IMG/VR virus record: IMGVR_UViG_3300048587_000332
Coordinates: 1 to 61,847 of that record
Length of the DNA: 61,847 nucleotides
Direction: 5' to 3' (one strand)
Origin: a virus
Positions 31,570-57,963 of this stretch are shown here, one piece after another; position 1 is the stretch's first letter; each line of letters begins with the position of its first letter. Below the pieces are notes generated by a model that was not told the DNA's origin, ran no database searches, and was given only the letters and a program-made list of their open reading frames with translations. A program made the translations under genes and the position numbers.

Positions 31570-31628
31570 TGCTACACTAGTTGTAGACCCCCAAAAACAC
31601 AGAGAGGCGGCTACCGTGCCGCCCTTTG
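31570..31628 (+). promoter_or_regulatory. Promoter-hairpin cassette C5 (orphan)
   Basis: TGC TACACT (-10 at 31573-31578), AGTTGTAGACCCCC, CACAGAGA, then the stem GGCGGC/GCCGCC (31606-31623) and CTTTGTGCATTTT. It lies between two converging genes and leads to no gene on its own strand. A small-RNA gene or an insulating terminator is possible. On the minus strand the same hairpin is followed by a T-run and could end the gene at 31648. Confidence 0.7.
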
Positions 31629-31647
31629 TGCATTTTGTAGGTGCTTT

Positions 31648-31917
31648 TTACTTGCGCGTGAATGTGAAGGTCTGCGCGTCGTAGTCCCAGTTGCCTTTGA
31701 GGTCGAGTTCGGCCATTAGCCCTGCCAAATAGCCGCGCATTCGTTCCTGGAATGGGTGAGCCGCCTGCTGGATAGCCTCGCTCGTCTGGGCGTCAATTGC
31801 CTTTAGATTTTCCCGATGCCTCGGGCTTAACGTCACTGTTTGTGGCTGCTCCGAGGCTGGCTCGGAGTTCGAAGTGGGGGCAGTTTTTGCCGGGGTCGTT
31901 ATTGATGTCTCTGACAT
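31648..31917 (-). CDS. Small late protein overlapping a zinc-binding gene (89 aa)
   Basis: The ATG at 31917 has AAAGGA upstream; the frame from 31950 starts earlier without one. The N-terminal 30 residues are Thr/Ser/Pro-rich and disordered (TPAKTAPTSNSEPASEQP). The C-terminal 50 (HPFQERMRGYLAGLMAELDL) look like a helical domain with an aromatic tail, as in small tail-fibre-associated phage proteins. The first 125 bp overlap, in another frame, the gene at 31793-32104. Confidence 0.6.
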   Translation of the reverse strand: MSETSITTPAKTAPTSNSEPASEQPQTVTLSPRHRENLKAIDAQTSEAIQQAAHPFQERMRGYLAGLMAELDLKGNWDYDAQTFTFTRK

Positions 31918-32104
31918 TGGCGTATCCTTTCCATACCTCCATCGTACCATTTACCGGGTCCCAGATTTGGTACAGCGTACTTACCGCGCGGCACTTGAGA
32001 GGCGCGAACCACTCGGCTTCCTCGCGAGTTTCGATCTTAGGCACCGTGTCGTTCTCGAAGGTGCCGTTTCCCGAAAAGTTGGCGCAATCCCTGCAAGCTG
32101 TCAT
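31793..32104 (-). CDS. Small Cys-rich protein (103 aa)
   Basis: It begins MTACRDCANFSGNG at an ATG overlapping the stop of the tail-fibre gene (TAATG). The CxxC pair at residues 4-7, a Cys in APLKCRAV and a C-terminal NCPHF give four Cys for one metal site. Both this and the overlapping 89-residue frame look coding, so I annotate both. The function is unknown; the position next to the fibre suggests a virion or assembly factor. Confidence 0.6.
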   Translation of the reverse strand: MTACRDCANFSGNGTFENDTVPKIETREEAEWFAPLKCRAVSTLYQIWDPVNGTMEVWKGYANVRDINNDPGKNCPHFELRASLGAATNSDVKPEASGKSKGN

Positions 32105-33498
32105 TAGGTTGTCCACCCTGTAATGATGCCGCCGCTAATAGTCACCGTGCGGCTGACGCCTCCACTATCAAGTGCCGTTCTCGTCCCTGTAATACCTGCG
32201 TTTCCATTGTGGCGGTAAACTGTCCCTGAGTTGACCACTTCGAAATCTACGAAACAATCGAAGCCAGAACTGGAGGATTGCCACACGCGGGAGAAGGCTC
32301 CGTCCCCGTGCTCGATAGTATCCGTAGGGCCGAACTGTACGTCGTCCGAGAATTGCATATCGCCGCCGGAGTTGACGCGGAATTTGGTAACCCCGGCCAA
32401 TTGGATAATGATGGGGTCGGTTCCGGCAGTCCCATTTAGTACAATTTGGCCGCCGTTGAGAATTTGCTGCGTGGAGGTAATCCGATTGTAATTGGTTCCG
32501 TCCGAAATTTGGACATAAGATGCCGTCAAGTCTAGGACAAAAGTGCCTCTTGAGAATCTAGCAAAACTTCCTGTCATTACTAAGGAGCCGGTGCCGTCTG
32601 AGATAGCTACTTGAGTTCCGTCAATTTGGAGGAAGCGGCCTCCTGAATAACTTAATGCGACGGCAGTTGAAGAGATGCTCAGACTTTGAGCGCCGTTGCT
32701 CATGATAATGGCAGTCCCGGAGATGGTAGTGAGATAAGCGCCTCGGCTTAACACAATGTTGTTGGAGGCGTTAATTGTGATTGAAGCTGTGCCGTCGGAT
32801 AAACTTATCGAAGTTGTGGAAAGGTCTAGAGAGCGCGTCCCTTTTGTTAATACGATATTTCCGCTAGAGTTAATCACTACGGAGGCGGTTCCATCCCCAA
32901 TAGCAATGGCGCTACCGCTAATACTCACATTGCGGATTCCGTCTGACATTCGGATACCCGTGGAAGCGATTTCAAGCAAATAGCTTCCGTTTTGGAAGGT
33001 AGCAGTGCCCGTAAACAGCGCGGTCCCTGCAAGTAGCTTGCCGATCGACACAGAAGCGATGTCGTCGTCCTCGATCTGAGATTGAGTGGAGATGCCGGTC
33101 ACTGTCGAGCTAAGCTCACGCGGAGAAGCGAAACCGTTCTTCAGTTGGGTTTGCACCCAGAATGTAACGGGTGAAGTGGAGTCACCTCCAACACGGATGC
33201 GGCACGGGGCTTTGCCCACGGAAGCGACGATCTTAGGCTCCTCCAAGTCGTTCGCTCGCTTGGCATACACATTGTACCTATCTACGTTCAGGAAGCGCGG
33301 GAGATCTTCCCAAGTAAGTAGGAACTCGCTTCCTAGAAAGGAGTCAGACAGGGGCGTTACACGAAGAGCTTCGACTGTCGGAACCTGAGTACTGCCGGTC
33401 AGACGTGGAGCAAATGCGCTGCCTTGGCCTGCGGACGCAGTTCCGATGAGGGAGCGCATAGCGTCGGCTACGCGCTTCAACTCATTCTGCGTGACCAT
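32104..33498 (-). CDS. Tail fibre/spike with beta-repeat shaft (464 aa)
   Basis: The N-terminal 40 residues are helical (attachment). Residues 40-130 resemble a fibronectin III domain (VEALRVTPLSDS...FLLTWEDLPRFLNVDRYNVYAKR). From about 150 to 370 there are repeats of some 20 residues with ISDGTASITI-like strands and ISLSDG turns, a predicted beta-helical or triple-beta shaft. The C-terminal domain is distinct and probably the tip. It follows the nozzle-like gene, as expected for a receptor-binding protein. An in-frame GTG at 33522 inside the previous gene is an alternative start. Confidence 0.7.
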   Translation of the reverse strand: MVTQNELKRVADAMRSLIGTASAGQGSAFAPRLTGSTQVPTVEALRVTPLSDSFLGSEFLLTWEDLPRFLNVDRYNVYAKRANDLEEPKIVASVGKAPCRIRVGGDSTSPVTFWVQTQLKNGFASPRELSSTVTGISTQSQIEDDDIASVSIGKLLAGTALFTGTATFQNGSYLLEIASTGIRMSDGIRNVSISGSAIAIGDGTASVVINSSGNIVLTKGTRSLDLSTTSISLSDGTASITINASNNIVLSRGAYLTTISGTAIIMSNGAQSLSISSTAVALSYSGGRFLQIDGTQVAISDGTGSLVMTGSFARFSRGTFVLDLTASYVQISDGTNYNRITSTQQILNGGQIVLNGTAGTDPIIIQLAGVTKFRVNSGGDMQFSDDVQFGPTDTIEHGDGAFSRVWQSSSSGFDCFVDFEVVNSGTVYRHNGNAGITGTRTALDSGGVSRTVTISGGIITGWTT

Positions 33499-33505
33499 CG
33501 TGGAG

Positions 33506-35845
33506 TTAGTATCCAATGCCACCAGTGTACTCCCAAATAATTCTCATGCCGTGACATTCGAACTTCTCGTTGACTGCCGATTTTGCTACGTTGATCCCGA
33601 TTCGCTCGCCCACCTTGTAAATGTTGTCGCAATACTTGTAGGCGAGATAATCGGTACTCTGCGATCTACGCGGCGGCGGATACGCAGTGCCGGAAGCAAC
33701 CGATGTGCTCATGCTGTCAATAAAGAATGTGAGCGTCGGTTCCGTATCCCCCGTAAACTTCTTTCGTTCGAACACAACTGCATAGATGCATGGCACAAAT
33801 GTCGGTTTCTTGTATGTGTTCACGTTATTTCCCGAGGGAATGCCGAACAGGTTCGTCTTATAAGAGTAGGTATAATTCTGCGCAGCGGCGGGTACGTAGT
33901 CCTGTGTTCCGTCATCCTGGTAGTAGTTTAGCGAAACAGTATTAGTGCTCCTATTCCAACCGCTGCCGATTAGATAGTCTTTTGTGTCTGTCTCATAAAT
34001 CTGACCGCTTGCGATGCAAGACACAGGCAAATCCCAAGGAGTATACCAGAAGATACCCTCTTGTTGCAAGTCAAATACAAAGGTTCGCGTAAGCGAAGCA
34101 TCGGAAATGTTCGTTGCCTGCAACACAACCCAGTCAAGCTGGTCTACTTGGTAGGAAGTAAGATAGAGGCGCAGGTTTGAAACGCCATTCGACGGCGCTA
34201 GGCGCGTAGCCAGTTCTGCCCCCAGCGGGTCGCCAATAGGTTCCTTCTGGTTGTCGCGGGCGCGGAAAATGCGGTTGTTGTTGGACACCCAGTAGACCAC
34301 ATCGCCCTTGGCGCACATGCCCCACCCGTCCTTCGCCCCTACGTCAGTGAATAGCGGTTGGATGGAGAACGAGGGCTTGTCGAAGCCCTTCAGCCAGTAA
34401 GTGCGTCTCGTTGTGAAGATATAGAGCGATTCCGCCGTGGACACCATACCAACAAGCGGTTCCTGGAGGCGGAAGAAGTTCCCTAGTGTACCCGACGGCC
34501 AAGCCTCTTCGGGCTTCCCTTGGTCCAATTCTTCAAGGGCGCTGTAAAACAGCACGTTGCCAATTCCGTACCACAGACGGCCCGCGAACTTAACGATAGG
34601 CGTCGAGGGATGGGGCGTAGTGGTTCCGACGATCCCGCCGTCTTCCGCCAACACCGTAGGGGGCGGAGAATTGGAAGTGAGGGTAGGAGCTACGCTCGCC
34701 TTATCCAACTGCGAGTCTGGCACTGGGTCCAAACCATAATAAGTAATAGTCGCCCCGTTCGAATGGGAAGCTGCGGTCGTTCCGGCGAAGCCGCGCTCGA
34801 CGGTGAACGTAGTGCCGCTTACAGCAGTCACTTTAATGTATTCACTGCCAATGAGAATGGCGAAGTCGCCATACCCAGGGAAGTTGGTGGCGGAAGCCAC
34901 CACTAGCGAAAGTACACTCGAACTAATTCCGCCATTTAGTGTGGTTGTGACCGTCCCACCAGTCAAACCGCTCACAAAGCTATTGTCGGTGTAGGTCTGA
35001 GACGAACTGGGCGTCATTGCCGACACGTCAATGGTGTCTAGTTCGTACCAAGTACCGCCACCGTCAGTTGTGCGAAATACTACAACTGTAGGAAAATTGG
35101 TAGGGTCGGCGGGAACAACGTATGTCAATTTCGGCAAAAGGTTACTGAAAGCGCCCGTGTTGCTGGCCGGGAAGTCGTAGTTCGTTTCGAGCGGCGAACG
35201 GTTGGTAATGTGCCCCGTAAGACTCTTGTAGGCGTAGGTGTACTGCCACCCTTGCGAAACCGTGAAGGGGTGGGCGGAGGAAGTCCAAGCACTGTAGAGC
35301 GCATCGCCGGTCTTGTATTGGTTGGTCATCCGCGCGGCAGTAGACGGCCCCAAAGCGCCCCACGGTTTCACCGTCAAATCGTCTCCGTTGAAGACGACGG
35401 TACCGAGCTTTTCGCTGCTTGCGTTTGCGGGATATCCCTTGACATAGAGGAGGCCCCGAGACTCACACATCTCATGAGGGCGCGTGGAAGCGTTAATATC
35501 TCGGTACGAAGTGATTTGCGTCCACACGGTAGGCGCAGAAGGACGTGTATAATAGACGCTCCAAGTGGTGGATGCCGTGTCGTAGACAGACGCCATCACA
35601 AAGGACTTGGGCGAAGCGCCCATGGTCGTATAGCAATAGAGACGGTCGATTCGCTTATTCGCCCCGATGGTACTGGCGGCAGCTACCTGAGACATTGATC
35701 CGCGCTTCTTGAGGAACCCTCCTGTAGCGGTCTGGTTATTCAAGCCAGAGACAATACGCGGAGCTGGATCAAGGTCCGACAGGATAGCGTCGAACGGAAG
35801 CCGAAGGGGAATAGATATGCCGTCAAGCTGATTCTCTTGTGCCAT
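33506..35845 (-). CDS. Tail nozzle / tail tubular protein B-like (779 aa)
   Basis: A 779-residue beta-rich protein of propeller-like sequence (repeated aromatic strands: RLWYGIGNVLFYSALEE; ESLYIFTTRRTYWLKGF; VVYWVSNNNRIFRARDN). This resembles the gp12-type nozzles that cap the short tails of T7-like phages. The N-terminus IPLRLPFDAILSD matches the opening of that family loosely. Its place between the adaptor genes and the fibre supports the call. SD and start are ordinary; GTG/ATG options of the fibre gene overlap its end. Confidence 0.7.
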   Translation of the reverse strand: MAQENQLDGISIPLRLPFDAILSDLDPAPRIVSGLNNQTATGGFLKKRGSMSQVAAASTIGANKRIDRLYCYTTMGASPKSFVMASVYDTASTTWSVYYTRPSAPTVWTQITSYRDINASTRPHEMCESRGLLYVKGYPANASSEKLGTVVFNGDDLTVKPWGALGPSTAARMTNQYKTGDALYSAWTSSAHPFTVSQGWQYTYAYKSLTGHITNRSPLETNYDFPASNTGAFSNLLPKLTYVVPADPTNFPTVVVFRTTDGGGTWYELDTIDVSAMTPSSSQTYTDNSFVSGLTGGTVTTTLNGGISSSVLSLVVASATNFPGYGDFAILIGSEYIKVTAVSGTTFTVERGFAGTTAASHSNGATITYYGLDPVPDSQLDKASVAPTLTSNSPPPTVLAEDGGIVGTTTPHPSTPIVKFAGRLWYGIGNVLFYSALEELDQGKPEEAWPSGTLGNFFRLQEPLVGMVSTAESLYIFTTRRTYWLKGFDKPSFSIQPLFTDVGAKDGWGMCAKGDVVYWVSNNNRIFRARDNQKEPIGDPLGAELATRLAPSNGVSNLRLYLTSYQVDQLDWVVLQATNISDASLTRTFVFDLQQEGIFWYTPWDLPVSCIASGQIYETDTKDYLIGSGWNRSTNTVSLNYYQDDGTQDYVPAAAQNYTYSYKTNLFGIPSGNNVNTYKKPTFVPCIYAVVFERKKFTGDTEPTLTFFIDSMSTSVASGTAYPPPRRSQSTDYLAYKYCDNIYKVGERIGINVAKSAVNEKFECHGMRIIWEYTGGIGY

Positions 35846-40625: not shown

Positions 40626-41666
40626 CTAGGAAACCTGGGTCGGAGTATCGTAGTAGATAAACCGATTAAAGGTCGATCCGCCCGTCAAAGTGTCGGTCAA
40701 CACCTTCGCCACATAGAAGAAGTTGTACGACACAAAGCCGCCAATAGAACCAGTGGGGTTCGCAATCGAGGGTTCCAGATTGCCCACGACGTTCAGCCGG
40801 AAACGCTGAGTCTTGGGATCGGTAACCTTCGTCGGACCCTTGGCCGCAAGCTGCGAACCGCCGATACCGCCATCGCCGAAGATGTAGGTACGGTAGTTGC
40901 TCGAATTGATGTATACGTTGGTAGACACCTTAAACATCACACCATTAAAGGTGAAGGCCTGACCACGGTCTTCGACCTTCTCAAATGGGTTGCCTTCAGT
41001 GTACTTGCGAACGTCCACAACGCCATTAGCCGCAGGATCGTTCACCACGTCAAACACAATGTAGGGGTGGATGATGCCGCAGAAGTAGCCCTTCGCGGAG
41101 CCGCTCTGCATGGGGCGTACATCATTGCCCTGCAAATACGCATGAGATAGGCGAATGTCGCCAGAACTCAGGTAGGTGCCCAGCAGCGCCGAACTGCGAT
41201 CCGCAGCGGAAATGCTGTCGATCTCGTTCCGGGTGATGGTATCCACCGTGTACGCAGCCCGGTAGGACATACGCTCGGTTGCGTTCTGGACAATCCCGCC
41301 GTCGTCAATCGAGGTCAGAATGACCCGATCAGACAGGGTAACGAAGTCCATGTACTGAGACAGCGTGGCCGTAATCACGTCGCTGTTCAGCGCCAACCCG
41401 GTGCCGACCGCACCTTCAGCAGCAGCGCCGACTGCCGTGGTGTTGGTGCCCAGTTCGCGGAAACGGTACCACTGAACGGTATTACCCGACTGCTTCGGCA
41501 TGTCGTCCATCTTCAGAACGTCCATAAAGACGAACTTCTTCTGGAGAGTATCCAACGCCTTAGTCTGGTAGTGGTAAATATACAGGCCGGTCGAAGACCC
41601 ACCCGTATAATTGTGCTGCAACGAAGTGTTGCCTTGAAGAATTACAGAAGCCGGGGTATAAGCCAT
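40626..41666 (-). CDS. Major capsid protein, N4-gp56-like (346 aa)
   Basis: The opening TGLYIYHYQTKALDTLQKKFVF and the following GNTVQWYRFRELGTNTTAVGAAAEG match the start of the N4-gp56 family of HK97-fold capsid proteins. ITATLSQYMDFVTLSDRV is the conserved P-domain strand, and TVDTITRNEIDSI the spine helix. Length is typical. Scaffold and portal genes lie directly upstream. The promoter at 41690-41698 and a strong TAGGAGG give it its own strong transcript, ended at 40557-40588. Confidence 0.85.
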   Translation of the reverse strand: MAYTPASVILQGNTSLQHNYTGGSSTGLYIYHYQTKALDTLQKKFVFMDVLKMDDMPKQSGNTVQWYRFRELGTNTTAVGAAAEGAVGTGLALNSDVITATLSQYMDFVTLSDRVILTSIDDGGIVQNATERMSYRAAYTVDTITRNEIDSISAADRSSALLGTYLSSGDIRLSHAYLQGNDVRPMQSGSAKGYFCGIIHPYIVFDVVNDPAANGVVDVRKYTEGNPFEKVEDRGQAFTFNGVMFKVSTNVYINSSNYRTYIFGDGGIGGSQLAAKGPTKVTDPKTQRFRLNVVGNLEPSIANPTGSIGGFVSYNFFYVAKVLTDTLTGGSTFNRFIYYDTPTQVS

Positions 41667-42578: not shown

Positions 42579-42923
42579 TTACACTAAAGGTAACTGATCC
42601 GATCCATACGGGACTTTGTTGAAAAAGGCGCTCACCTTCAAATCCGCATCATCGATGCCTTCGGCATCCTGAATGTCCTGAACATTGATACGCGCATTCT
42701 CGGGAGCACTAGTAATGAACTGCACAACATGGCGAAAGATACTCCAGTGGTCTTTCGCTCTCACGATTTCCCTCGGATCGTCCAACACAGCCAAGTGTTC
42801 AAGCATCTGCTTTTCTTTGTCGGCTAACGCGGACAAAAGAACACTCCAACCGGGGTGGGAAGAGAGATCCGACAAATCGCGAGCCTTACTCGCCTGCTCA
42901 AAATCGCCAGGGCTAAGAGCCAT
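42579..42923 (-). CDS. Small helical late protein (114 aa)
   Basis: The ATG at 42923 lies within the last codons of the portal gene in another frame. The product is predicted fully helical (SVLLSALADKEKQMLEHLAV; DDPREIVRAKDHWSIFRHVV), with no recognised motif. Small helical proteins in this place may be connector, scaffold-helper or packaging proteins. Confidence 0.55.
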   Translation of the reverse strand: MALSPGDFEQASKARDLSDLSSHPGWSVLLSALADKEKQMLEHLAVLDDPREIVRAKDHWSIFRHVVQFITSAPENARINVQDIQDAEGIDDADLKVSAFFNKVPYGSDQLPLV

Positions 42924-44847
42924 TTTCACCGCCTGCGGCGGCACCGCCACCCATCACACGCTGCATAACAGCCATCAGCATTTCCTTCTTCATGTCGGCG
43001 TCAGTCTTCTTGTCAACCTCTTGCAACTTACCTTGCACCTTCAACTGCTCAGCCTGCGCCTTCTTATCGGCCATCGCGAGACGAACCTCATTCGATGCCT
43101 TCGTTTTCTGCTGGTCCTGCACCATTTCAGGAGTCGGCTGCATAAGCGCCTGCTGTTCCTGCTGGTTGAGAGGCCGCACCAACTGATACACCTGCTTCGT
43201 GCCGCTGGCATCCTGCAACATGCGAACCCATTCCGCCATATCGACGGCCATTCCGATCCGCTGCAAATGCCCCATCAAATCAGGATTGAGCAAATACTGC
43301 GTCAGGAACGGGAACACCTGCAACAACTTCTCTCGCGACATCATCCGTGTCGCGGACAGCATCATAAACTTGACTTCACGTTGAAGACTTTCGTTCGCAA
43401 CCGGGACCTGTCCTTCCGCAGTTATACCGCGCAACTGAAGATCCCCTTGATTGTGAAGCTGGTGCATCTTCAGCATCTTATACAACATGGGCGTCAGCAG
43501 GTAGTTTTCCAACGAAAGAACCACCATCAGAAGTCGCATGGAGGGCGCTTCTCGCTGTGCTCCCACCGAAGTCGCACTAGCCGAGGCATTGCCCCGCATC
43601 GGCATACCCTGGAGGACCATGGAGTTCACTCCGGTCATCTCCTGAGCCTGCTGCTGCATCCAGCTTTCTTCCTGATAGGAGTTTTGCGTAATGTTGGACG
43701 GCACCTGGATGGCAATATCATCCTTGCCATTCTCGGTCGCCAACTGAGCGCCCGGTCGCCAAATACGCTGCGAAAACGTCATGCGCTGGTCGTGCGAAGC
43801 GCGGGTAACACGTGGCGGATTCAACGCAAGCGAAAGCTCATCCAGTCGCGAATTACGAATCGACTGCATGTACTTCTGCAAATCAGCCAGCACATCGGAA
43901 TAGCCATTCCCATAGAACCGATCCGGGTCAAAGAAGCAAGTCGCCGCCGTAAACGGATAAAACCCATACGGATTCTCGCCATTGTAAATCACATACTCTC
44001 TATTAAGCACCCAGACAACTCGTGTCTTGGTGTAATAGATAAGCACCTCTAGATTGCTCTCCGCGCCGAATACACCCTGTCCGTCCGAAATCGGACTATA
44101 GGCCACCCCTCGGGACGCCTCTTCCATCTGCCGCGAATGGTCGGCTACCGCCGAAGGCGTACTCTGCGCACACGCCAGCAGCGTCATCCGATCTGGAATG
44201 TCGAAGCCTTCGGCCCCTCGGAGGGCCTCCACCTGATCCAGCGTAAGGGTGCGCCGCCAAATGACCGACTTCGCCTGTTCAATATCTGGTCCACAAGCGG
44301 GATCAACATAGAAGTCTAGCGGCGAAATACGATTGGCTACAGGTTCGAGCGTAAGCGGGTCCACTTGCAAAGCGAGGATGGCGATTCCCTTAACAAGCAA
44401 ATCGTTGAGTGTAAGCGTAACTTGGTTACGCACATTATTGCCGAATCGATCCGTCGGATGCTCGCACAGATACAGAAGCCGCGCCTGCACTTCTGCCGCT
44501 TCCTGGGGCGTTGTATCACCAATCGCCGCTACCTTGAACCACTCAACGTCCGTACCGAAAAGCGCCTGATGCAGCAACGGAAGAACACTCTGCACCTGTG
44601 AGTGGATAAGCCGAACAGAAAGCGAAGCTCGCTCGGTCGTGGTACCTTCCCAGAACCGTCTGGGCACAACGCCGTTGTAAAGCTCCTGGAGATGCCGCCA
44701 CTTGTTATCGTAGTTGCGCTGCCGCCAACTCTCGTACTTAAAGAAAGTCTGGACGACGCGGGACATCGCCATCTGCTTTGAGATGTCTGCGTACCCCGGA
44801 GTTGGGTCGTTGGAAAGCGGCAGATTACCAGTAAGTTCTTCAGCCAT
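42913..44847 (-). CDS. Portal protein (644 aa)
   Basis: The frame opens at 44928, but the ATG at 44847 lies 10 nt after the late -10 box, so the longer N-terminus would not be transcribed. Long helices with Gln/Met, WRHLQELYNGVVPRRFWEG, a Trp/Arg-rich stem (YESWRQRNYDNKWRHLQ), and DFYVDPACGPDIEQAKSV match podovirus-type portals (head-tail connector, about 60-75 kDa). The C-terminus is Gln-rich coiled coil. It forms the dodecameric DNA channel and docks the terminase. The next gene leftward overlaps by 11 nt. Confidence 0.8.
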   Translation of the reverse strand: MAEELTGNLPLSNDPTPGYADISKQMAMSRVVQTFFKYESWRQRNYDNKWRHLQELYNGVVPRRFWEGTTTERASLSVRLIHSQVQSVLPLLHQALFGTDVEWFKVAAIGDTTPQEAAEVQARLLYLCEHPTDRFGNNVRNQVTLTLNDLLVKGIAILALQVDPLTLEPVANRISPLDFYVDPACGPDIEQAKSVIWRRTLTLDQVEALRGAEGFDIPDRMTLLACAQSTPSAVADHSRQMEEASRGVAYSPISDGQGVFGAESNLEVLIYYTKTRVVWVLNREYVIYNGENPYGFYPFTAATCFFDPDRFYGNGYSDVLADLQKYMQSIRNSRLDELSLALNPPRVTRASHDQRMTFSQRIWRPGAQLATENGKDDIAIQVPSNITQNSYQEESWMQQQAQEMTGVNSMVLQGMPMRGNASASATSVGAQREAPSMRLLMVVLSLENYLLTPMLYKMLKMHQLHNQGDLQLRGITAEGQVPVANESLQREVKFMMLSATRMMSREKLLQVFPFLTQYLLNPDLMGHLQRIGMAVDMAEWVRMLQDASGTKQVYQLVRPLNQQEQQALMQPTPEMVQDQQKTKASNEVRLAMADKKAQAEQLKVQGKLQEVDKKTDADMKKEMLMAVMQRVMGGGAAAGGENGS

Positions 44848-44857
44848 CGCTACTTCT

Positions 44858-44866
44858 ATTTTACCA
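44858..44866 (-). promoter_or_regulatory. Late promoter of the portal gene (minus)
   Basis: TGG TAAAAT AGAAGTAGCG, then the ATG at 44847. Distance from -10 to start codon is 10 nt, leaving a leader of only about 3-4 nt. It is divergent from cassette C6, whose -10 lies 25 bp away. Confidence 0.7.
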
Positions 44867-44886
44867 TTGGCGCTACGCGCCATTAG

Positions 44887-44966
44887 TGGTACACTAGTTG
44901 TAGACCCCCGTGGCGCTTCGCGCCACACAAACGGACGAGAGGGCGGACGCCAATCTGCCCTCTTTT
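44887..44966 (+). promoter_or_regulatory. Promoter-hairpin cassette C6
   Basis: TGG TACACT (-10 at 44890-44895), AGTTGTAGACCCCC, an additional hairpin GTGGCGC TTC GCGCCAC (44910-44926), ACGAGAG, then the stem AGAGGGC/GCCCTCT (44938-44963) and TTTT. The only member with two hairpins. Downstream on the same strand is the AAA+ gene at 45039. Confidence 0.75.
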
Positions 44967-45038
44967 CTGTAGGTGGCCGAAAAAAGGAGTTGATTTGGAA
45001 TGCCTTTGCGAGTAAGCTCCAAGAGAGGAGAACCTAAA

Positions 45039-46070
45039 ATGCCTGTAAACGGAACTCGGAGGTGCATCTCAATGGCCGCCTCCCGGCGAGCGCGAGAAGC
45101 CGAACTCCCGTACCTAGTACGACTTCGCGAGCGCATCATCGGTCAGGAGTGCATTTCCAAAATCACTCCCTACCTGGATATGATCGACGCCAACCTCAAC
45201 CCGCCAGGAAGACCCGCTGGCGTTTTCATGCTTCTCGGCCCCACGGGTACAGGTAAGACTAGAACCGTCGAAGCCGTAACTGAGATACTGCACCACTCCG
45301 ACCGTCATTTGCTCCGCATCGATTGCGGAGAATTTCAAATGGAACACGAAGTAGCAAAATTGATCGGAGCGCCTCCAGGCTACCTGGGGCACAAAGAGAC
45401 TTCGCCCCTACTTAACAAGCAAAGGCTAGAAGCCGTTACCTCCAAATACAGCCGCATTTCCGTTGTTCTCTTCGATGAGGTGGAAAAGGCCGCGCCTTCT
45501 ATGCAGCGCCTCCTCCTGGGCATTCTCGACAAAGGCATTTTGCGAATTGGCGACAACAACTCCGTTGACTTCGAAAACTCGCTCATCTTCTTTACATCCA
45601 ATGTTGGCTATGCCGAAATCGGCCAGATGGGGAAAGCTCCCGGCTTCGCCAATACCACTTCGCCCGCGTCCCTCTCTCGCATGGTTGAACAGCGCCTCAA
45701 GCGCAAGTTCTCCCCGGAATTCGTCAACCGCATTGATGAGTTTCTCTATTTCGAGGAATTGACCAAAGAGAATCTCCGCCAGATCGTAGACCTTGAACTG
45801 ACCAAAGCCGAGGACTGGCTCACCACTCGCTGGGGTTTCGATTCATGCGCTTTGCGCTTCGACGACTCCGCGAAGGATCTCTTTGTCAAGGTCGGCTTCG
45901 AAGCCAAATACGGGGCGCGTCCGCTCAAGCGAGCCATCACCCATCTGTTGTGGCAACCACTGGCGGTCCTCAAGACCAGCGGAAAGATTACGGCGGGCCT
46001 TACCATCCACATCACCGCCGACGGCGATAAGCTCGCCTTCTCCCAGGAAAAGCGGCAGGCGGCTACCTAA
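45039..46070 (+). CDS. ClpB/ClpA D2-like AAA+ ATPase (343 aa)
   Basis: One AAA+ module: Walker A MLLGPTGTGKT (about 63-73), VAKLIGAPPGYLGHKE (the pore-loop region typical of ClpA/ClpB D2), Walker B VVLFDEVEKAAP (about 146-157), sensor 1 FFTSNVG, FSPEFVNRIDEFLYF (arginine-finger region), and sensor 2 YGARPLKRAI. It lacks the N-domain, D1 and middle domain of ClpB and the ClpP-binding loop is not evident. It probably unfolds or remodels protein complexes. It lies alone on the (+) strand between portal and terminase genes, so a role in assembly or host control is possible. GAGAGGAG precedes the ATG. Confidence 0.8.
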   Translation: MPVNGTRRCISMAASRRAREAELPYLVRLRERIIGQECISKITPYLDMIDANLNPPGRPAGVFMLLGPTGTGKTRTVEAVTEILHHSDRHLLRIDCGEFQMEHEVAKLIGAPPGYLGHKETSPLLNKQRLEAVTSKYSRISVVLFDEVEKAAPSMQRLLLGILDKGILRIGDNNSVDFENSLIFFTSNVGYAEIGQMGKAPGFANTTSPASLSRMVEQRLKRKFSPEFVNRIDEFLYFEELTKENLRQIVDLELTKAEDWLTTRWGFDSCALRFDDSAKDLFVKVGFEAKYGARPLKRAITHLLWQPLAVLKTSGKITAGLTIHITADGDKLAFSQEKRQAAT

Positions 46071-47863
46071 AGCCCGCCTGTCCGCGAATAGTAGCTCTCT
46101 TCAGGCAAAGCCGGGTTCGCATAGGGATTCTCCAGCCCCTGTACGAGAGCATTAAATGCTTTCTGTGCCATGGTTTCGAAAGTCTCTCTCTCACGAATCC
46201 TCCCATAGAACGACTTATTCTGAAACTGGTCCGCGAGTGTATCCAAGATGTCGTCCGACACACCCTTCGGGAATTGCGTGAACTCCTGGTAAATGGCTTC
46301 CTTCACATCAGAGGGCAAGCCCTCCGAAAACCGTAGATCGCCTCGCCGCAACACTGGCTGCAACGTCAGCCGAATACGCTCCAGCTTACTCTTCTGGTTA
46401 TCCGGCTTGACGAAATCAAGCGGAATGGAGAAACGCTTCAGGTGCATCTCTCGCTCAAGGCCGAAGCGAAATCCGCGTGAGTAACTTGTCTCCTCAATGC
46501 GCACCACAATAGGTCGCCACTTAGCATATACCTCGAAGATCGCCGAAGCCAGTTCGTCCGGCTTCATCTTGTCTCGGCGCACATCCACCACATAACAGCG
46601 ATTGTTGGAGTCCCACCCGCACGTCGTCACTACCGAATAGTTACTATTCTCGTTCGTGGTTTCGGCTGTGTCCACCGTCGTCGCATAATATTCCATCGGA
46701 ATTTTGCGCACAATATCAGCGGGCACATACTGGACAACAGAAGCCGGAAAGTCGCTTGCCTCCGTATCTCCAACGGGATGATTGCGGTACTGTGAGTTGA
46801 ACTCGAACTTCGATTGCGCCGGGTCGTTCTCCATCTCCAGCAACGTATCTACCGGAACTCGCGCAGGCCACCAACTAATCGGCTTTCCGTCCGCATCCTT
46901 CAGGTCCGGCAGTTCCAACTCTTCGGGCAGAAAAGCATAGTCCTTAACGCCAGGGGGCAGCTTTTTCTTATAACACCCTCTAACATAGATACTCCAACTG
47001 CGCCGCTCGACCGGAAGCTGTTTCTGTCCGTCAATGATACGCCCGTATAAATCGTCGAAGTGGTACCGGGTTCCCTCCACGTCAATCCAGTATTGCGGCG
47101 ATACGAGAATAGGTCGAAACATACCGAACTTGTAGGCAATAGTATCACGGCGATCCTTGTTGGCGCTATTCTCCGACTCCACACAGTCCGTAAACTTGAG
47201 AATATCGAAGTGCATACCAGCAATCGTACTCTCAATAGACGACGTTCCCACCGAAGGTTCGCGCCGCGTCTTATTCGGACGGCTGGGCAAATAAAACTCC
47301 GAAGCATTCCCGAAGTGCTTCAACTCCTCTTCCGTAGGACATACGTCGGGAAACAACATCCGCAATTGTTCGTTCGTGGCGAAATGACTCTTAATGGTCA
47401 TCAGCACTTTCTGCGCGTGCCCCTCTTTCGCGTGAATGACCAGTATTCGCGCATCTGGATAATTAAGCAACCATTGGATGGTATGCGCTTCGACATTAGT
47501 GGACGTTTTAAGGCTGCCGCGAAAATCGAGTATTAGGCGTCTTCGAGGTCCTGGCAGATCAAGCATATTAGGAATCACCGGCTTATATGCCCACGACACA
47601 GAACCATCGGGCTTAACTACGGGCTTGTCATAATTGAACCACTCATTTTCTGCGGGCAGCGGAAACGTCTGCAAAGTGCGCACCAATCCGTAATGCACAT
47701 CAGGACGCACGTCTTTGTACCCAAGCACCTTATTACACAGGTAATACATATTGGTCCGCGCCAACCACCGTGCTTTGGCGATCTTCATAATCGCCTCGCG
47801 CTCCTCGGTGACCTGTTTGGTGCGTGCCTCACGCGGGTCTTTAACGTACAAATTCAGTGACAT
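46067..47863 (-). CDS. terL: Terminase large subunit (598 aa)
   Basis: Residues 105-120 hold LILDFRGSLKTS, a Walker A-like motif of the terminase type with Arg/Ser before Lys. A hydrophobic strand with Asp/Cys follows (FDILKFTDCVESEN). The C-terminal nuclease acids are in TTVDTAETTNENSNYSVV (about 395-412) and GVSDDILDTLADQF. The protein pumps DNA into the procapsid and cuts it. Its 3' end overlaps the converging AAA+ gene by 4 bp and its start overlaps the JAMM gene by 23 bp. The only small-subunit candidate is at 7358. Confidence 0.88.
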   Translation of the reverse strand: MSLNLYVKDPREARTKQVTEEREAIMKIAKARWLARTNMYYLCNKVLGYKDVRPDVHYGLVRTLQTFPLPAENEWFNYDKPVVKPDGSVSWAYKPVIPNMLDLPGPRRRLILDFRGSLKTSTNVEAHTIQWLLNYPDARILVIHAKEGHAQKVLMTIKSHFATNEQLRMLFPDVCPTEEELKHFGNASEFYLPSRPNKTRREPSVGTSSIESTIAGMHFDILKFTDCVESENSANKDRRDTIAYKFGMFRPILVSPQYWIDVEGTRYHFDDLYGRIIDGQKQLPVERRSWSIYVRGCYKKKLPPGVKDYAFLPEELELPDLKDADGKPISWWPARVPVDTLLEMENDPAQSKFEFNSQYRNHPVGDTEASDFPASVVQYVPADIVRKIPMEYYATTVDTAETTNENSNYSVVTTCGWDSNNRCYVVDVRRDKMKPDELASAIFEVYAKWRPIVVRIEETSYSRGFRFGLEREMHLKRFSIPLDFVKPDNQKSKLERIRLTLQPVLRRGDLRFSEGLPSDVKEAIYQEFTQFPKGVSDDILDTLADQFQNKSFYGRIRERETFETMAQKAFNALVQGLENPYANPALPEESYYSRTGGL

Positions 47864-53794: not shown

Positions 53795-53818
53795 AAAGGG
53801 AGGGCTAACGCCCTCCCT
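53795..53818 (-). terminator. Terminator after the 53844 gene (minus)
   Basis: On the minus strand GGGAGGGC, GTTA, then GCCCTCCC followed by TTTGCATTT. A perfect 8-bp GC stem 26 bp after the stop codon. Confidence 0.75.
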
Positions 53819-53843
53819 TATTTAGAATTCTAAGCTACTCTTT

Positions 53844-54212: not shown

Positions 54213-54221
54213 AGCGCCTCC

Positions 54222-54503
54222 TTACGGAATGTAGACAAAGATGTCCTGAGCGGCATCATTGATCGGCGTGCCGGTCAAATTCCCGAAAACCACCGAAAGC
54301 GTGTTGTTGGCGCTCACCCAAGCGTGAGAAATCACCAAACCAGCCGCCAAACTCGGAGCGGTCACAATCGGGAACATATTCGTCCGCAGCCCGTCAATCG
54401 TAAACGTCTGAGCCGCCGACGTATTCGCCGCCACCTCAGCCGGGTTGACGTTCGCCGTCAGCATCTTCGTAAACGGAACAGATCCAATCTTCGGTTGAGC
54501 CAT
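54222..54503 (-). CDS. Small beta-rich virion protein (93 aa)
   Basis: A 93-residue beta protein (TFTIDGLRTNMFPIVTAPSL; HAWVSANNTLSVVFGNLTG) with few charges. Its pattern is common among virion-associated proteins of unknown structure encoded beside decoration proteins. Its promoter (54527-54535) is back-to-back with cassette C7. GGGAGG precedes the ATG. Confidence 0.55.
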   Translation of the reverse strand: MAQPKIGSVPFTKMLTANVNPAEVAANTSAAQTFTIDGLRTNMFPIVTAPSLAAGLVISHAWVSANNTLSVVFGNLTGTPINDAAQDIFVYIP

Positions 54504-54526
54504 AGTGCAGGTTCCTCCCTCTTTCT

Positions 54527-54535
54527 ATTGTAACA
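54527..54535 (-). promoter_or_regulatory. Late extended -10 promoter (minus), overlapping cassette C7
   Basis: On the minus strand TGT TACAAT AGAAAGAGGGAGG. The complement of these bases provides the -35 (TTGTAA, 54528-54533) of the (+) cassette C7. The two promoters overlap physically and probably interfere with each other. Confidence 0.65.
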
Positions 54536-54617
54536 TTCAAAATCTATGCTAAACTAGTTGTAGACACCCCCGACAGCCGCGAGCGTCCGCGCTCCGGTTG
54601 TCTGGGGTTTTTGAGCA
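54528..54617 (+). promoter_or_regulatory. Promoter-hairpin cassette C7 (orphan)
   Basis: TTGTAA (54528-54533), 16 bp, TGC TAAACT (-10 at 54550-54555), AGTTGTAGACACCCC, then a long hairpin CCCCGACAGCCG...CGGTTGTCTGGGG (54567-54606) and TTTTTG. There is no (+) gene downstream: the next feature is the 3' end of the minus-strand holin-like gene. Confidence 0.7.
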
Positions 54618-54643
54618 TTTGGGGCTTTGTCTGCGTGGTTCAC

Positions 54644-54850
54644 TTATTTGGCGGGGGTCGGAGGCCGAAGAATGGCCAGCAGAGCGCCGCCGAAACCCGC
54701 GGCAATCGAGCCGACCTGGCCCTGAAGCTGCTCGCTCTCCGGCACCCAAACCTTGATCGCCACTTCCGCCGCGAAAAACACCAGACAAAGGGCGCTCATC
54801 GTAAAAATCTTAGCGCCTTCGCCTTCCAACCACTCGGTAAATTTACTCAC
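54644..54850 (-). CDS. Holin-like membrane protein (68 aa)
   Basis: Two hydrophobic segments: IFTMSALCLVFFAAEVAIKV (about 15-34) and VGSIAAGFGGALLAIL (about 46-61), with a short charged N-terminus and a Pro-rich, basic C-terminus. This topology and the nearby peptidoglycan-degrading gene fit a class II-like holin that opens the inner membrane. It overlaps the Acb2-like gene by 8 nt. Confidence 0.6.
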   Translation of the reverse strand: MSKFTEWLEGEGAKIFTMSALCLVFFAAEVAIKVWVPESEQLQGQVGSIAAGFGGALLAILRPPTPAK

Positions 54851-55082
54851 GAGCTTCGCTCCCTTTCGGCGGCTCCTCGTTGATGGCGATGCTGGCGTTG
54901 GCCCACATCACTGCCTGTTGAATGTGTGTCAGAGCAGTTGACTTCTCCCGCGATTCGGGACACGCATCCTGCACTAAGTGCGCGAACTCTTTGGCGGCTT
55001 GCCTAATCTTGACGTACCTTTCCGGCTGGTCCCCAAAGGGGGCGCGGTAGGTAAAAATTCGATTGATCTGTTCGTTAGTCAC
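54843..55082 (-). CDS. acb2: Acb2/Tad1-like cyclic-nucleotide sponge (anti-CBASS) (79 aa)
   Basis: The 79-residue helical protein has the family signature: an N-terminal FTYRAPFGDQ, ERYVKIRQAAKEFAHLV, CPESREKSTALTHIQQA and the C-terminal VMWANASIAINE. Acb2 proteins form hexamers that bind cyclic di- and trinucleotides and so block CBASS (and, in some, Thoeris-type) signalling. The gene lies inside the lysis cassette, overlapping genes on both sides by 8 nt. Recognition is by sequence pattern only. Confidence 0.8.
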   Translation of the reverse strand: MTNEQINRIFTYRAPFGDQPERYVKIRQAAKEFAHLVQDACPESREKSTALTHIQQAVMWANASIAINEEPPKGSEARE

Positions 55083-55620
55083 TGATTAGCTCCTTCAAAG
55101 GTGTTTCCATGATCGTCTTGCGGTCGAGACCGCAGCGCTCGCCCACGAACTGCGCGTAAGTGTACGGCTCGTTGCCGTCCGAAGACGGCGCGTACACCTG
55201 GAACATGCCGAGCATCGAAGGCGACTTCCCATTCGTGTACTTCCCGTCAATGTACTGGCCGATCAGTGCCTCCAACACCCTGCGCCCCTCGGCGCAAGCC
55301 GAACGGACGCGCTCTGCGGGGCGTTTTGCCATTTCGCTTAGAATTTTATCTAAGGTTTGGCGGCGGACCGCTTTGGACGCCGACCGGGTGGGACGGCGCG
55401 GCATGAGAGGCTCTGTAGCTCCCGTGCGGTTCAACTCCCATTGATAGAAGTCGATGTAGCCGTAAGCGGTCGGGTGCTTGGCGCTCCAGCGGCGAACGTT
55501 GCCGGGGTTGCAAAGCTGCTGCGGGACGGTCGGAAAGTCGGGGTGCCCCGGCTTGGCGTGGTACCCCTCCTTAATTTCGATGGCATCCGCCATCAGCGAA
55601 ATAAGATCTTGTCGGGTCAT
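55075..55620 (-). CDS. Peptidoglycan hydrolase / lysozyme-like endolysin (181 aa)
   Basis: Residues 10-45 contain the helix and loop AIEIKEGYHAKPG...QLCNPGNVRRW, like the 'E-G...NNPGNLR' signature of phage muramidase/transglycosylase proteins, with a catalytic Glu in the first helix. The C-terminus has MFQVYAPSSDGNEPYTYAQFV and a helix. I take the ATG at 55620, just after the stop of the upstream membrane-protein gene; no clear Shine-Dalgarno exists, so translation may be coupled. Upstream in-frame starts at 55677 (ATG) and 55716 (TTG) add a hydrophobic, signal-like N-terminus but overlap that gene. Confidence 0.65.
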   Translation of the reverse strand: MTRQDLISLMADAIEIKEGYHAKPGHPDFPTVPQQLCNPGNVRRWSAKHPTAYGYIDFYQWELNRTGATEPLMPRRPTRSASKAVRRQTLDKILSEMAKRPAERVRSACAEGRRVLEALIGQYIDGKYTNGKSPSMLGMFQVYAPSSDGNEPYTYAQFVGERCGLDRKTIMETPLKELISD

Positions 55621-55639
55621 TGGCGTGCTCGTCGCGCCG

Positions 55640-55915
55640 TTAAGCGGCGCTCTTTTTGCGAAAGGTGCCGATGGCATTGAAAACGCCAACAACAATGTCA
55701 ATGATAGGGGTAGCAAGGTTGACCACGAAATCGGCAGAGAACTTGCCCTTCACGCCAGGGATAGACCCAACTACTTCAACGAGGGATTTGAGCGCGTCGA
55801 GCGCAAGCTGCTTCTTCTCAGACCCAGGAAGCTCCTCGGTTTCGACGGTCTTAACAATGCGCTCCAGGAGTTCCCAGAGAACGGGGATCAAAGCGAAAAT
55901 CTGCAAAAAGGCCAT
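55640..55915 (-). CDS. Membrane-associated protein, possible holin (91 aa)
   Basis: Two apolar segments (MAFLQIFALIPVLWELLERI and NLATPIIDIVVGVFNAI) surround a charged helix (ELPGSEKKQLALDALKSLVE). It resembles phage proteins annotated as holins upstream of endolysins. TAGGAG follows the promoter at 55936-55944 and precedes the ATG. With the 54644 gene there would be two holin-type proteins, perhaps holin and antiholin. Confidence 0.55.
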   Translation of the reverse strand: MAFLQIFALIPVLWELLERIVKTVETEELPGSEKKQLALDALKSLVEVVGSIPGVKGKFSADFVVNLATPIIDIVVGVFNAIGTFRKKSAA

Positions 55916-55935
55916 AGGTTCAGTCTCCTACAACC

Positions 55936-55944
55936 ATTTTAGCA
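55936..55944 (-). promoter_or_regulatory. Promoter of the lysis cassette (minus)
   Basis: On the minus strand TGC TAAAAT GGTTGTAGGAG: the box and downstream GTAG exactly as in the phage consensus, with the Shine-Dalgarno included in the initial transcribed region. Confidence 0.65.
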
Positions 55945-55950
55945 TTTCGG

Positions 55951-56310
55951 CTATCCGCCTTCGGCGGGGTCGTAGTATTCAACTCGAATGGTATCGCCTT
56001 CTGATAGTTCTTTATTGATACGGGCCTCGATCTCTTCGGGCGTCTCTACGAGGGGCTGCCCCATGCGGCGAGCACATTCCACCTTATGCCACTTCTTGAA
56101 CGCCTCGGAGTTGACCAGCCGCAGGAAAGCGTTACGTTCATTGGTCTTCTGGTCGCGTGAGTCGCGGGCTTCGCCGCGGGCACCCGAGGCTTCGTGGATA
56201 AACCGAACCCCGGACTCCACCTTGTTCTGGTTCTGCCCACCTTTGCCGCCCGAACGGAAGGTTTGGCGCACTAAATCCTTTTTGGTCACCGAGAAAAGCA
56301 AACGCTTCAT
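55951..56310 (-). CDS. GGQ-domain release-factor-like protein (119 aa)
   Basis: Residues 12-32 (DLVRQTFRSGGKGGQNQNK) carry the universally conserved GGQ loop of class I release factors and of ArfB/PrfH-type rescue factors, followed by VESGVRFIHEASG. It is only the catalytic domain; the codon-recognition domain is absent. Unlike ArfB, the C-terminus (RINKELSEGDTIRVEYYDP) is acidic rather than a basic tail for the mRNA channel, so it may need another partner or act differently. Cassette C8 lies directly upstream. Confidence 0.8.
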   Translation of the reverse strand: MKRLLFSVTKKDLVRQTFRSGGKGGQNQNKVESGVRFIHEASGARGEARDSRDQKTNERNAFLRLVNSEAFKKWHKVECARRMGQPLVETPEEIEARINKELSEGDTIRVEYYDPAEGG

Positions 56311-56329
56311 ATTATCCTTTCACCTAAAC

Positions 56330-56412
56330 GAAAAACGCCGGATGCGTACATCGCGGCGTCTCTCGTGAGGAGGGTCCACTACTAGTGTGCCACTTCGTGG
56401 TACGAATGTCAA
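56330..56412 (-). promoter_or_regulatory. Promoter-hairpin cassette C8
   Basis: On the minus strand: perfect TTGACA (56407-56412), 17 bp, TGG CACACT (-10 at 56384-56389), AGTAGTGGACCC, TCACGAGAG, then the stem ACGCCG.GATG/CATC.CGGCGT (56335-56359) and TTTTTCG. It is the copy with the strongest -35. The terminator ends 20 nt before the release-factor-like gene. Confidence 0.75.
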
Positions 56413-56481
56413 GCTATTTCTTCGGCTTCGCCGAAGGAACTAACACGGCCAGGATAGGTAACGCGGCCATGGTACGTCGGG

Positions 56482-56604
56482 TCATTCGTCTACCTGGATT
56501 TCGCGGGGACGGGCTTGCCGATGTGTTCTGGTCCCCCTCCACCCGTCGTATTCTGCCATCGTGCCGTCCAGGTCCACACCGAGCCACCCGTTGAAGTCGC
56601 TCAT
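56482..56604 (-). pseudogene. HAD-family phosphatase remnant, frameshifted and truncated
   Basis: From the ATG at 56604 (GAGGAG upstream) the frame reads MSDFNGWLGVDLDGTMAEYD, with the DxDGT nucleophile motif of HAD phosphatases, and ends 40 codons on. After GGGTGGAGGGGG the sequence resumes the expected pattern (GPEHIGKPVPA) only in another frame, and then soon stops as well. A homopolymer slip plus loss of the remaining 100 or more residues is inferred. Bases 56413-56481 hold no recognisable remainder. Confidence 0.55.
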
Positions 56605-56843
56605 CTCGCCCACTCCTCTCTGCCGCACTTGCGGCACTTGCGAACGTAAATTCGGTAGCTGCGCTCTCGGTTGTTCAACGCTGCCTCTTGGGGTGTAACC
56701 GATCTCGCCTCTGCGTACAGCATCGGCGCTGACCAGTCATGCTCCACGCCCACCTTGCCCTTGCACCAGCGGCGGGTATCTTTCTTGCCGGGGATGGGCT
56801 TCGGCGTTTCCGGTGCCGGGGTGTTTCGAAGATCTGACCTCAT
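56601..56843 (-). CDS. Small Cys-containing hypothetical protein (80 aa)
   Basis: The basic N-terminal half contains RRWCKGKVGVEHDW, a segment recurrent in small phage zinc-binding proteins. The C-terminus has RKCRKCGREEW, a CxxC knuckle. Together they may form one zinc site. Its start overlaps the stop of the 33-residue gene and its stop overlaps the HAD remnant's ATG, so the three are one operon. Confidence 0.55.
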   Translation of the reverse strand: MRSDLRNTPAPETPKPIPGKKDTRRWCKGKVGVEHDWSAPMLYAEARSVTPQEAALNNRERSYRIYVRKCRKCGREEWAR

Positions 56844-56941
56844 CCCCTGTCCTCATGAATGCACACAGGGTCAATGCGAGCCGTGCCTCGGGTGCGTAGG
56901 TTCGGGTCTTCATTATAAACGTCGTAGGTTAGATAGACCAT
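56840..56941 (-). CDS. Small peptide gene (33 aa)
   Basis: An ATG at 56941 with a strong GAGGAGG 6 nt upstream, directly after an attenuator-like terminator. The product (MVYLTYDVYNEDPNLRTRG...) is too short for a family call; the frame is supported by the ribosome-binding site and by its stop overlapping the next ATG. Confidence 0.5.
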   Translation of the reverse strand: MVYLTYDVYNEDPNLRTRGTARIDPVCIHEDRG

Positions 56942-56955
56942 AGAAGACCTCCTCG

Positions 56956-56989
56956 AAAAATGCCCCGATTCGTCGCTACCTTCGGGGCA
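56956..56989 (-). terminator. Terminator/attenuator between tRNA-Thr and the small-gene operon (minus)
   Basis: On the minus strand TGCCCCGA, 13 nt, TCGGGGCA, then TTTTTCG and directly the GAGGAGG of the gene at 56941. The tRNA transcript would end here, with some read-through into the operon. Between it and the tRNA is a perfect 14-bp palindrome (GGTTGTGCACAACC, 57011-57024). Confidence 0.7.
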
Positions 56990-57074
56990 ACAGATATCTC
57001 ACATGGGAGCGGTTGTGCACAACCCCGACTATCGCCAACCTTGCAAGCGTTAAGCCGAGGCTATTGGCGAATCT

Positions 57075-57149
57075 TGGAGCCACCCGCAGGATTCGAACCC
57101 GCATCTGGTCGCTTACAAAGCGTCCGCTCTACCGTTGAGCTAGAGTGGC
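57075..57149 (-). tRNA. tRNA-Thr (anticodon UGU)
   Basis: A complete cloverleaf on the minus strand: acceptor GCCACTC/GGGTGGC (one U-G pair), D-arm GCTC/GAGC, anticodon stem GACGC/GCGAC (one A-A mismatch) with loop TTTGTAA, five-base variable loop, T-arm GCGGG/CCTGC with TTCGAAT, and an encoded CCA end. Anticodon UGU reads ACA (ACN). The discriminator base is U, unusual for Thr. It is the only tRNA I find. Its promoter is at 57183-57211. Confidence 0.85.
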
Positions 57150-57182
57150 GAAACTCTGTCGGGTACGTCGCCCCGCACTTTC

Positions 57183-57211
57183 AGCATAACGCGTCGAAGG
57201 CTCGCTGTCAA
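57183..57211 (-). promoter_or_regulatory. Strong sigma70 promoter for tRNA-Thr (minus)
   Basis: On the minus strand TTGACA, 17 bp, TATGCT; the -10 is about 34 bp before the 5' end of the tRNA. It overlaps no gene and diverges from the promoter at 57249. Confidence 0.8.
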
Positions 57212-57248
57212 TACCTTTCCACTATGGAACTATTGCGCCGAAGGCGCA

Positions 57249-57257
57249 TGGTAGAAT
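57249..57257 (+). promoter_or_regulatory. Extended -10 promoter for the gene at 57305
   Basis: TGG TAGAAT AATAGTAGG, with GTAG 4 nt after the -10 as in the late promoters, here on the (+) strand. Upstream is the hairpin GCGCC GAA GGCGC. Confidence 0.65.
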
Positions 57258-57304
57258 AATAGTAGGATTGCGCATCCTTATACTTCTAGCTAGGAGGCCA
57301 AACT

Positions 57305-57841
57305 ATGGCTAATAATGTGTTGCTTCTCTCTAACGCAGCCGCGCCTGGAACCGCGCTGCTTTTTCCTCTGGTAGTTGCCAAGCAGGGCAATGTTACGGCG
57401 GACTCTGCCGACAATCCAGCGGGAGTATTCCCTTTTGACGTGGAGATTGTCAAATTTGTCGGTGGAGTGCTCACCAATGGCGTTGATGGCACTGACCCAC
57501 TCTCTATGCAGTTCGATGTGAAAAAGAGGGCGGCTGCGGCTACCTCCGGTACCTCGGTCCTGACGACCAAGGCATCCATCGGAGGTCAGACTGGGGGTAC
57601 AGGCATTTCCGCGGCGGCAGGTACGGGTTATCGGCACACCAATGCAGATGCCACTGGCGTTGTAGCTGCTGTCCTAGACAGCACTAAAACGGTTGTGGCG
57701 GCGGGATCTATGATTTCTGTGGATTTCGATATTACTCGGACTACGCCGGAAACGGAAATTGTAGGGCCGTTCGCTATCGTGTGGGTGGCACCTCTGGGCG
57801 GGGCCGACACGCGTGCTAATGGCGATTTCGTGGGCCTTTAG
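57305..57841 (+). CDS. Putative virion-type beta protein on the (+) strand (178 aa)
   Basis: A beta-rich, Gly/Ala/Thr-rich protein (GVFPFDVEIVKFVGGVLTNG; ISVDFDITRTTPETEIVGPF) of low charge. It resembles phage decoration or fibre-tip domains. It has its own promoter, TAGGAGG site and terminator. It is an isolated (+) gene at the edge of the late region. A surface protein added as a separate transcription unit is likely but unproved. Confidence 0.55.
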   Translation: MANNVLLLSNAAAPGTALLFPLVVAKQGNVTADSADNPAGVFPFDVEIVKFVGGVLTNGVDGTDPLSMQFDVKKRAAAATSGTSVLTTKASIGGQTGGTGISAAAGTGYRHTNADATGVVAAVLDSTKTVVAAGSMISVDFDITRTTPETEIVGPFAIVWVAPLGGADTRANGDFVGL

Positions 57842-57866
57842 TGCCTTCGGCACTAACTAACTGAAA

Positions 57867-57892
57867 GGGGAGCCGGGAGGCTCCCCTTTTTT
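57867..57892 (+). terminator. Intrinsic terminator directly before cassette C9
   Basis: GGGGAGCC, GGGA, then GGCTCCCC followed by six Ts: a perfect 8-bp stem. As at C3, a terminator closes the upstream gene a few bases before the -10 of a cassette. Confidence 0.9.
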
Positions 57893-57893
57893 A

Positions 57894-57963
57894 TGTTACA
57901 CTGGTTGTAGACCAACCACGCAGAGGGCGGGGCCAAGGCCGAGAGGCTTTGGTTCCGCCTTTT
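57894..57963 (+). promoter_or_regulatory. Promoter-hairpin cassette C9 (orphan)
   Basis: TGT TACACT (-10 at 57897-57902), GGTTGTAGACC, CACGCAGAG, then a long stem GGCGG.GCCAA.GCC / GGC.TTGG.CCGCC (57926-57959) and TTTTGTGCG. It lies between converging genes and leads to no gene on its own strand. Confidence 0.75.

Follow-up and report, generated by a model that had tools for sequence, protein, structure and literature searches.

The window analysed here is the whole of viral record IMGVR_UViG_3300048587_000332, a stretch of 61,847 nt. This 62 kb phage genome holds eight near-copies of a tiny promoter-hairpin unit, designated C1 to C7 and C9, a numbering taken over from an earlier note on this DNA as far as it could be reconstructed (Table 1). 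All of the cassettes are located at the ends or borders of transcription units. Within C5, C7 and C9 an extended -10 promoter (TATGNTANACT-N-GTTGTAGACC) is followed by a short A/C-rich linker, a strong hairpin and a U-run. Over 216 nt the two ends of the record (1-216 and 61632-61847) are the same but for 1 mismatch; they lie inside a gene of 15-nt tandem repeats, and the genome appears to be circular or terminally redundant, possibly with a collapsed repeat.

Table 1. Positions of the cassettes, nearby signals and landmark genes in the window
Feature	Position	Strand	Details
Cassette C1	3715..3780; motif 3780-3759	-	-10 without TG, -35 TTGCAT at 17 bp; hairpin without U-run
Cassette C2	8575..8645	+	variant TGGTAGACTAGTAGTGCAACC; promoter overlaps upstream ORF stop codon 8583-8585
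DNA polymerase	17015-19051	+	
Cassette C3	22693..22757	+	next gene with own leaderless-type -10 TGCGAAACT, 6 nt before GTG
Cassette C4	23922..23990; motif 23990-23969	-	upstream of conserved 47-aa ORF 23885-23742, minus
Orphan cassette C5	31568..31637	+	promoter 31568-31578, inferred start 31585, A/C linker, hairpin ~31597-31630, weak T-run to 31636
Major head protein	40626-41666	-	
T7-like portal/adaptor	42913-44928	-	
Promoter AATGGTAAAAT of portal gene	44858..44868	-	back to back with C6
Cassette C6	44885..44972	+	one extra small hairpin; upstream of AAA+ gene 45000-46070
Large terminase subunit	46067-47863	-	
Extended -10 promoter AATGTTACAAT of gene 54222-54503	54537-54527	-	back to back with C7; identical in relative
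Orphan cassette C7	54545..54613	+	promoter 54545-54555, inferred start 54562, hairpin, T-run 54608-54612
Terminator of plus gene 57305-57841	57863..57890	+	directly before C9; A and T runs flank
Orphan cassette C9	57892..57963	+	promoter 57892-57902, inferred start 57909, 22-bp hairpin, T-run 57960-57963

When up to 3 mismatches are allowed, the 22-nt motif TATGNTANACTNGTTGTAGACC occurs at seven sites over both strands of the window, with 0 expected and 0 found across 100 dinucleotide shuffles. These sites correspond to C1, C3, C4, C5, C6, C7 and C9, each with a hairpin 3' of the motif, and the eighth, variant copy (C2) was recovered in a scan that looked for extended -10 sites with a very stable hairpin downstream. 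An intrinsic terminator, that is a GC-rich hairpin and then a U-run, is present in C2, C3, C4, C6, C7 and C9; that of C5 is weak and C1 has no U-run. Searches of bacteria and archaea (84,980 species, one genome each) gave 0 matches to the motif. Its other viral matches fall in unrelated contigs, mostly inside long open frames and with no strong hairpin, for which coding coincidence was accepted as the explanation while being dismissed for the cassettes. DNA similar to C6 or C9 was not found among 50,697 phage records. Rfam 15 yielded only a tRNA from the window at gathering score, and under relaxed thresholds the orphan cassettes gave weak, unrelated matches far below gathering scores. As judged by these searches, no copy of the cassette was found outside a small clade.

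The earlier note described C5, C7 and C9 as orphans facing only the 3' ends of genes on the opposite strand, and this description is borne out. No plus-strand gene was found downstream of any of the three, either in the window or in a related phage (described below), and comparison with the relative supports the opposing minus-strand genes as real. C5 is located between a plus gene (30783-31559) and a minus gene with its stop codon at 31648, while C7 is flanked by two co-directional minus genes, 54222-54503 and 54644-54850, the latter with its opposing stop at 54644 and a protein 93% identical in the relative. C9 lies between a plus gene (57305-57841) and a minus gene ending at 57970. This last gene (57970-58317, 115 aa) has an SD, shows third-position substitutions with respect to the relative and is shorter than the 302-aa ORF. 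Distances from cassette to opposing gene end are ~11-18 bp (C5), 31 bp (C7) and 6 bp (C9), in agreement with the 7-30 bp reported at first. The position given initially for C7 (54528) belongs to the minus promoter AATGTTACAAT. Two genes beyond C7, a minus-strand gene (54843-55082) encodes a 79-aa protein in which an Acb2/Tad1 hairpin domain was recognised (PF24729, score 74.5 bits, cut-off 27); the protein is likely an anti-CBASS/anti-Thoeris signal sponge.

Each orphan had also been credited with a complete promoter and a terminator. The extended -10 is there, without a -35; among all the cassettes only C1 has a good -35, which accompanies a -10 without TG. Terminator hairpins with a T-run are found at C7 and C9; C5 has the hairpin, followed by a weak U-run (CCTTTGTGCATTTTG). 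The 60 nt downstream of C5, C7 and C9 rank at the stable extreme of the genome (top 0.67%, 0.2% and 0.02%, respectively), with z-scores against shuffles of -6.5, -5.7 and -6.6.

Conservation was assessed in one well-covered relative, IMGVR_UViG_3300048834_000258 (73.6 kb), which is about 84% identical and largely collinear, most aligned blocks being 76-93% identical; searches with the terminase, DNA polymerase and head protein returned the same few contigs only. All eight cassettes, orphans included, are found at syntenic places in this genome. C5 is nearly identical although the end of its upstream gene differs. In C9, 6 pairs are altered, all of them still pairing and 0 broken. C7 has been rebuilt through a 14-nt indel and a new stem, while ACTAGTTGTAGAC and a full hairpin with U-run are kept; of the pairs derived from the window, 4 are broken and 2 gapped on the alignment, and the relative's own hairpin is equally stable. 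C3 and C6 are invariant in the relative and thus uninformative on structure, the C6 promoter and RNA being identical in four related contigs (the relative and three further). Linkers drift between A and C. In this alignment, then, pairing survives sequence change, and the composition and shape of the cassettes are kept while linkers and hairpins vary freely. The tRNA detected in the window is a tRNA-Thr(TGT) gene (57075-57149, minus), and the stretch aligned to it in the relative does not resemble this gene.

Genes have been gained and lost between the two phages, as with insertions near C1 and C9, and the orphans could on that account be relics of leaders whose genes were lost or replaced. 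However, orphan status is common to both genomes, and the promoter core and hairpin have been kept while neighbouring sequence diverges, so that we regard relics as very improbable. The claim that these three are not simple gene leaders is supported; promoter and hairpin are intact in the relative, with no gene downstream in either phage.

Seven of the eight cassettes carry an extended -10, in which TGN directly precedes TANNNT and the -35 is dispensable. The exception, C1, has a -35 (TTGCAT in the window, TTGTAT in the relative) at 17 bp spacing. Such an arrangement agrees with the requirements of a sigma70-type polymerase, and compensation for a missing -35 by an extended -10 has been reviewed (PMC10911233). 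The form TGNTANN[AC]T-N4-GTAG is common to the cassettes and to phage mRNA promoters at 5504, 30710, 38991, 44866, 55944 and 57249; the window has 12 such sites, where shuffles average 0.1, and the relative has 11. Judged by its bases, the cassette promoter looks sigma70-like rather than phage-RNAP-like. A promoter for a phage RNA polymerase is not the leading idea, because C1 exchanges the TG for a -35 and the motif is that of a standard extended -10. A search with PF00940 gave no match, its positive control likewise being without a match, and the proteins that were scanned yielded no match to an RNA polymerase. At usual spacing, transcription would start at the A of GTAG and place a G at +2, a base contacted by core enzyme (PMC10911233). 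Phage Tunturi_3 contains no TGNTANN[AC]TN4GTAG site, and 1.18 Mb of acidobacterial DNA gave 0 matches, which indicates that GTAG is no common host signal in that sample.

The predicted cassette RNAs start with AGACC and continue through an almost pure A/C linker into a terminal hairpin. Over the copies in both phages the linkers comprise A39 C67 G4 T0. Within the window, U accounts for 4 of 225 positions in the 5' halves and A for 1 of 152 in the 3' arms (the extra small hairpin of C6 excluded). Naive binomial values are 1e-19 and 6e-16, respectively, for a pattern that was noticed afterwards and whose arms are interdependent. The pattern is absent from eleven hand-picked terminator-like hairpins elsewhere in this phage. 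C1, C4, C5, C7 and C9 have no T in their first 24 nt and C2, C3 and C6 have 1-3, while T-free 24-mers make up 0.5% of all 24-mers and the six mRNA promoters are followed by 4-9 T in the first 24 nt. With a U-free start there are no start codons and no -10-like pause element near the 5' end.

The genes after C2 and C3 carry their own leaderless-type promoters 6 nt before the start codon, which together with the three orphans means that five of the eight cassettes need not be leaders. C4, which precedes the 47-aa ORF, and C6, which precedes an AAA+ gene with SD, may be true leaders, and C1 is possibly one as well. C4 had been considered as a fourth orphan, a proposal withdrawn in view of the conserved ORF downstream. 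The product of this ORF (23742-23885, minus, right after C4) is a basic protein with 98% identity in the relative and no family match. At several genes of the window (40509, 8674 and 22795) the start codon is preceded by a -10 hexamer that ends 6 nt upstream of it, and leaderless mRNAs are likely in this phage. Leaderless genes with TANNNT at about 6 nt have been described in bacteria, Acidobacteria included (PMC3160421).

The genes after C4, C6 and perhaps C1, together with a promoter core that is conserved beyond the -10, bring to mind a promoter-attenuator under antitermination, as in lambda pR'-tR' with Q. In that case the short RNA would be a by-product, a late factor would let polymerase pass the hairpin, and read-through at the orphans would give RNA antisense to the opposing genes. 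The sRNA StxS of Shiga toxin phage originates at a late promoter. It is listed among phage sRNAs (PMC12197685) and serves as an example of a functional terminated late-promoter RNA. The genes after C2 and C3, however, have promoters of their own, and the three orphans would yield antisense RNA only. Lambda-type Q loading depends on a -10-like pause element early in the transcript, and the cassettes are without one because their initial transcribed region is nearly T-free. No antiterminator or Q-like protein was found among the phage proteins searched, which covered part of the ORFs, most of them without a family match. We consider antitermination control unlikely.

In our preferred reading, to which we assign a probability of about 0.5, C5, C7 and C9 are self-contained units that make terminated, untranslated RNAs of ~50-65 nt. 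A -35-independent promoter of the sigma70 type, the same kind as the phage mRNA promoters, would start the RNA at the A of GTAG, and after an unstructured A/C 5' end the strong hairpin would stop it at ~50-65 nt. These short RNAs would be independent of any downstream gene. The suggestion that the orphans encode independent small RNAs fits what was found, as they look like such units and the relative retains both promoter and hairpin at each of the three. Weakening it are the weak U-run of C5, the lack of one in C1 and the genes after C4, C6 and perhaps C1, where the cassettes could be leaders. We infer from sequence that RNA is produced, as well as its ends, stability and mode of action. The product may act via shape and abundance, for example by binding or titrating a protein, or terminated transcription may itself be what matters. 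One of these, rather than a base-pairing seed, is most likely the mode of action, since linkers and hairpins vary freely yet keep their composition and shape.

The earlier note had also proposed sponges. Base-pairing sponges of phage RNAs are disfavoured, as the RNA 5' ends show no more complementarity to other parts of the phage than shuffled sequences do; a trans-acting, base-pairing sRNA with a conserved seed is likewise disfavoured, the search within the phage having returned no seed above shuffle level. A more specific version of the small-RNA reading, in which a multi-copy family of phage micro-RNAs with U-free 5' half and A-free 3' arm would titrate a host or phage protein in trans during infection (e.g. 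an RNA-binding protein or RNA polymerase), is doubtful. Action as a 3'-end antisense regulator is a mixed case: the 3' trailer of the gene opposing C9 would be complementary to the predicted C9 RNA, but hairpin sequence varies freely and C7 sits between co-directional genes.

The cassettes had been suggested to act as roadblocks as well. As boundary elements they would separate neighbouring units by collision or occupancy, through polymerase at the cassette and the hairpin. Their placement at unit borders agrees with this, C5 and C9 being at convergent junctions, and for C5 the opposing strand of the hairpin bears a T-run as well. Work on a synthetic E. coli system showed that antisense promoters placed at the 3' end of a gene reduce its expression via collision and antisense RNA, although most polymerases from the forward promoter survive collisions (PMC4731013). 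The hairpins of C7 and C9 have no U-run on the opposing strand. C7 parts no converging units, the second of its co-directional minus genes having its own promoter, and just upstream of C9 the terminator at 57863-57890, which is possibly bidirectional, would serve the purpose. A roadblock is thus possible at C5 and C9 and leaves C7 unexplained; as a general function of the cassettes it is disfavoured, and we rate it slightly below antitermination control.

Type I 3'-UTR-derived sRNAs have their own promoter inside a gene's 3' end and share its terminator. By sequence, C2, C4 and C5 resemble them in lying directly after a same-strand stop codon (C2 overlapping it), with a hairpin that can serve both transcripts. 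Unlike them, the cassettes repeat one promoter-hairpin design eight times with divergent RNA bodies and no seed found, and C6 and C7 occupy divergent intergenic spots. With lambda pR'-tR' (6S RNA) and StxS-type late-promoter RNAs the cassettes have in common a promoter soon followed by an intrinsic terminator and a short untranslated RNA, predicted in our case. They differ in RNA length (~50 nt against nearly 200), in being present in several copies, some without a gene to control, and in the nearly T-free start with no -10-like pause element. Stoperators of cluster A mycobacteriophages are repeated intergenic regulatory sites, comparable in that many copies of one asymmetric site are spread genome-wide; the cassette site, in contrast, includes a -10 promoter, and a hairpin follows it in every case. 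Like the 3'-end antisense promoters (PMC4731013), the orphan promoters stand at the opposing gene's 3' end and fire toward the gene, but the cassette terminator would halt the RNA before reaching it.

The best matches of the AAA+ protein encoded after C6 (45000-46070, plus; phrog_4871) are ~50% identical and located on Terriglobia and Bryobacterales chromosomes; the gene was probably acquired from the host group. Among named phages the best terminase match is Tunturiibacter phage Tunturi_3, and the two sets of matches together indicate that the host of this phage clade probably belongs to the Acidobacteriota. Promoters and terminators go unmentioned in the article describing the Tunturi viruses (PMC11924767), and phages of Acidobacteriota have hardly been studied. 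The eight promoter-hairpin units at fixed positions, three of them serving no gene, suggest that RNA forms a further layer of infection, with rules (a U-free 5' half and no seed) that would differ from those of textbook small RNAs. The cassette reading makes simple, testable predictions for transcriptomes from infections of this kind.
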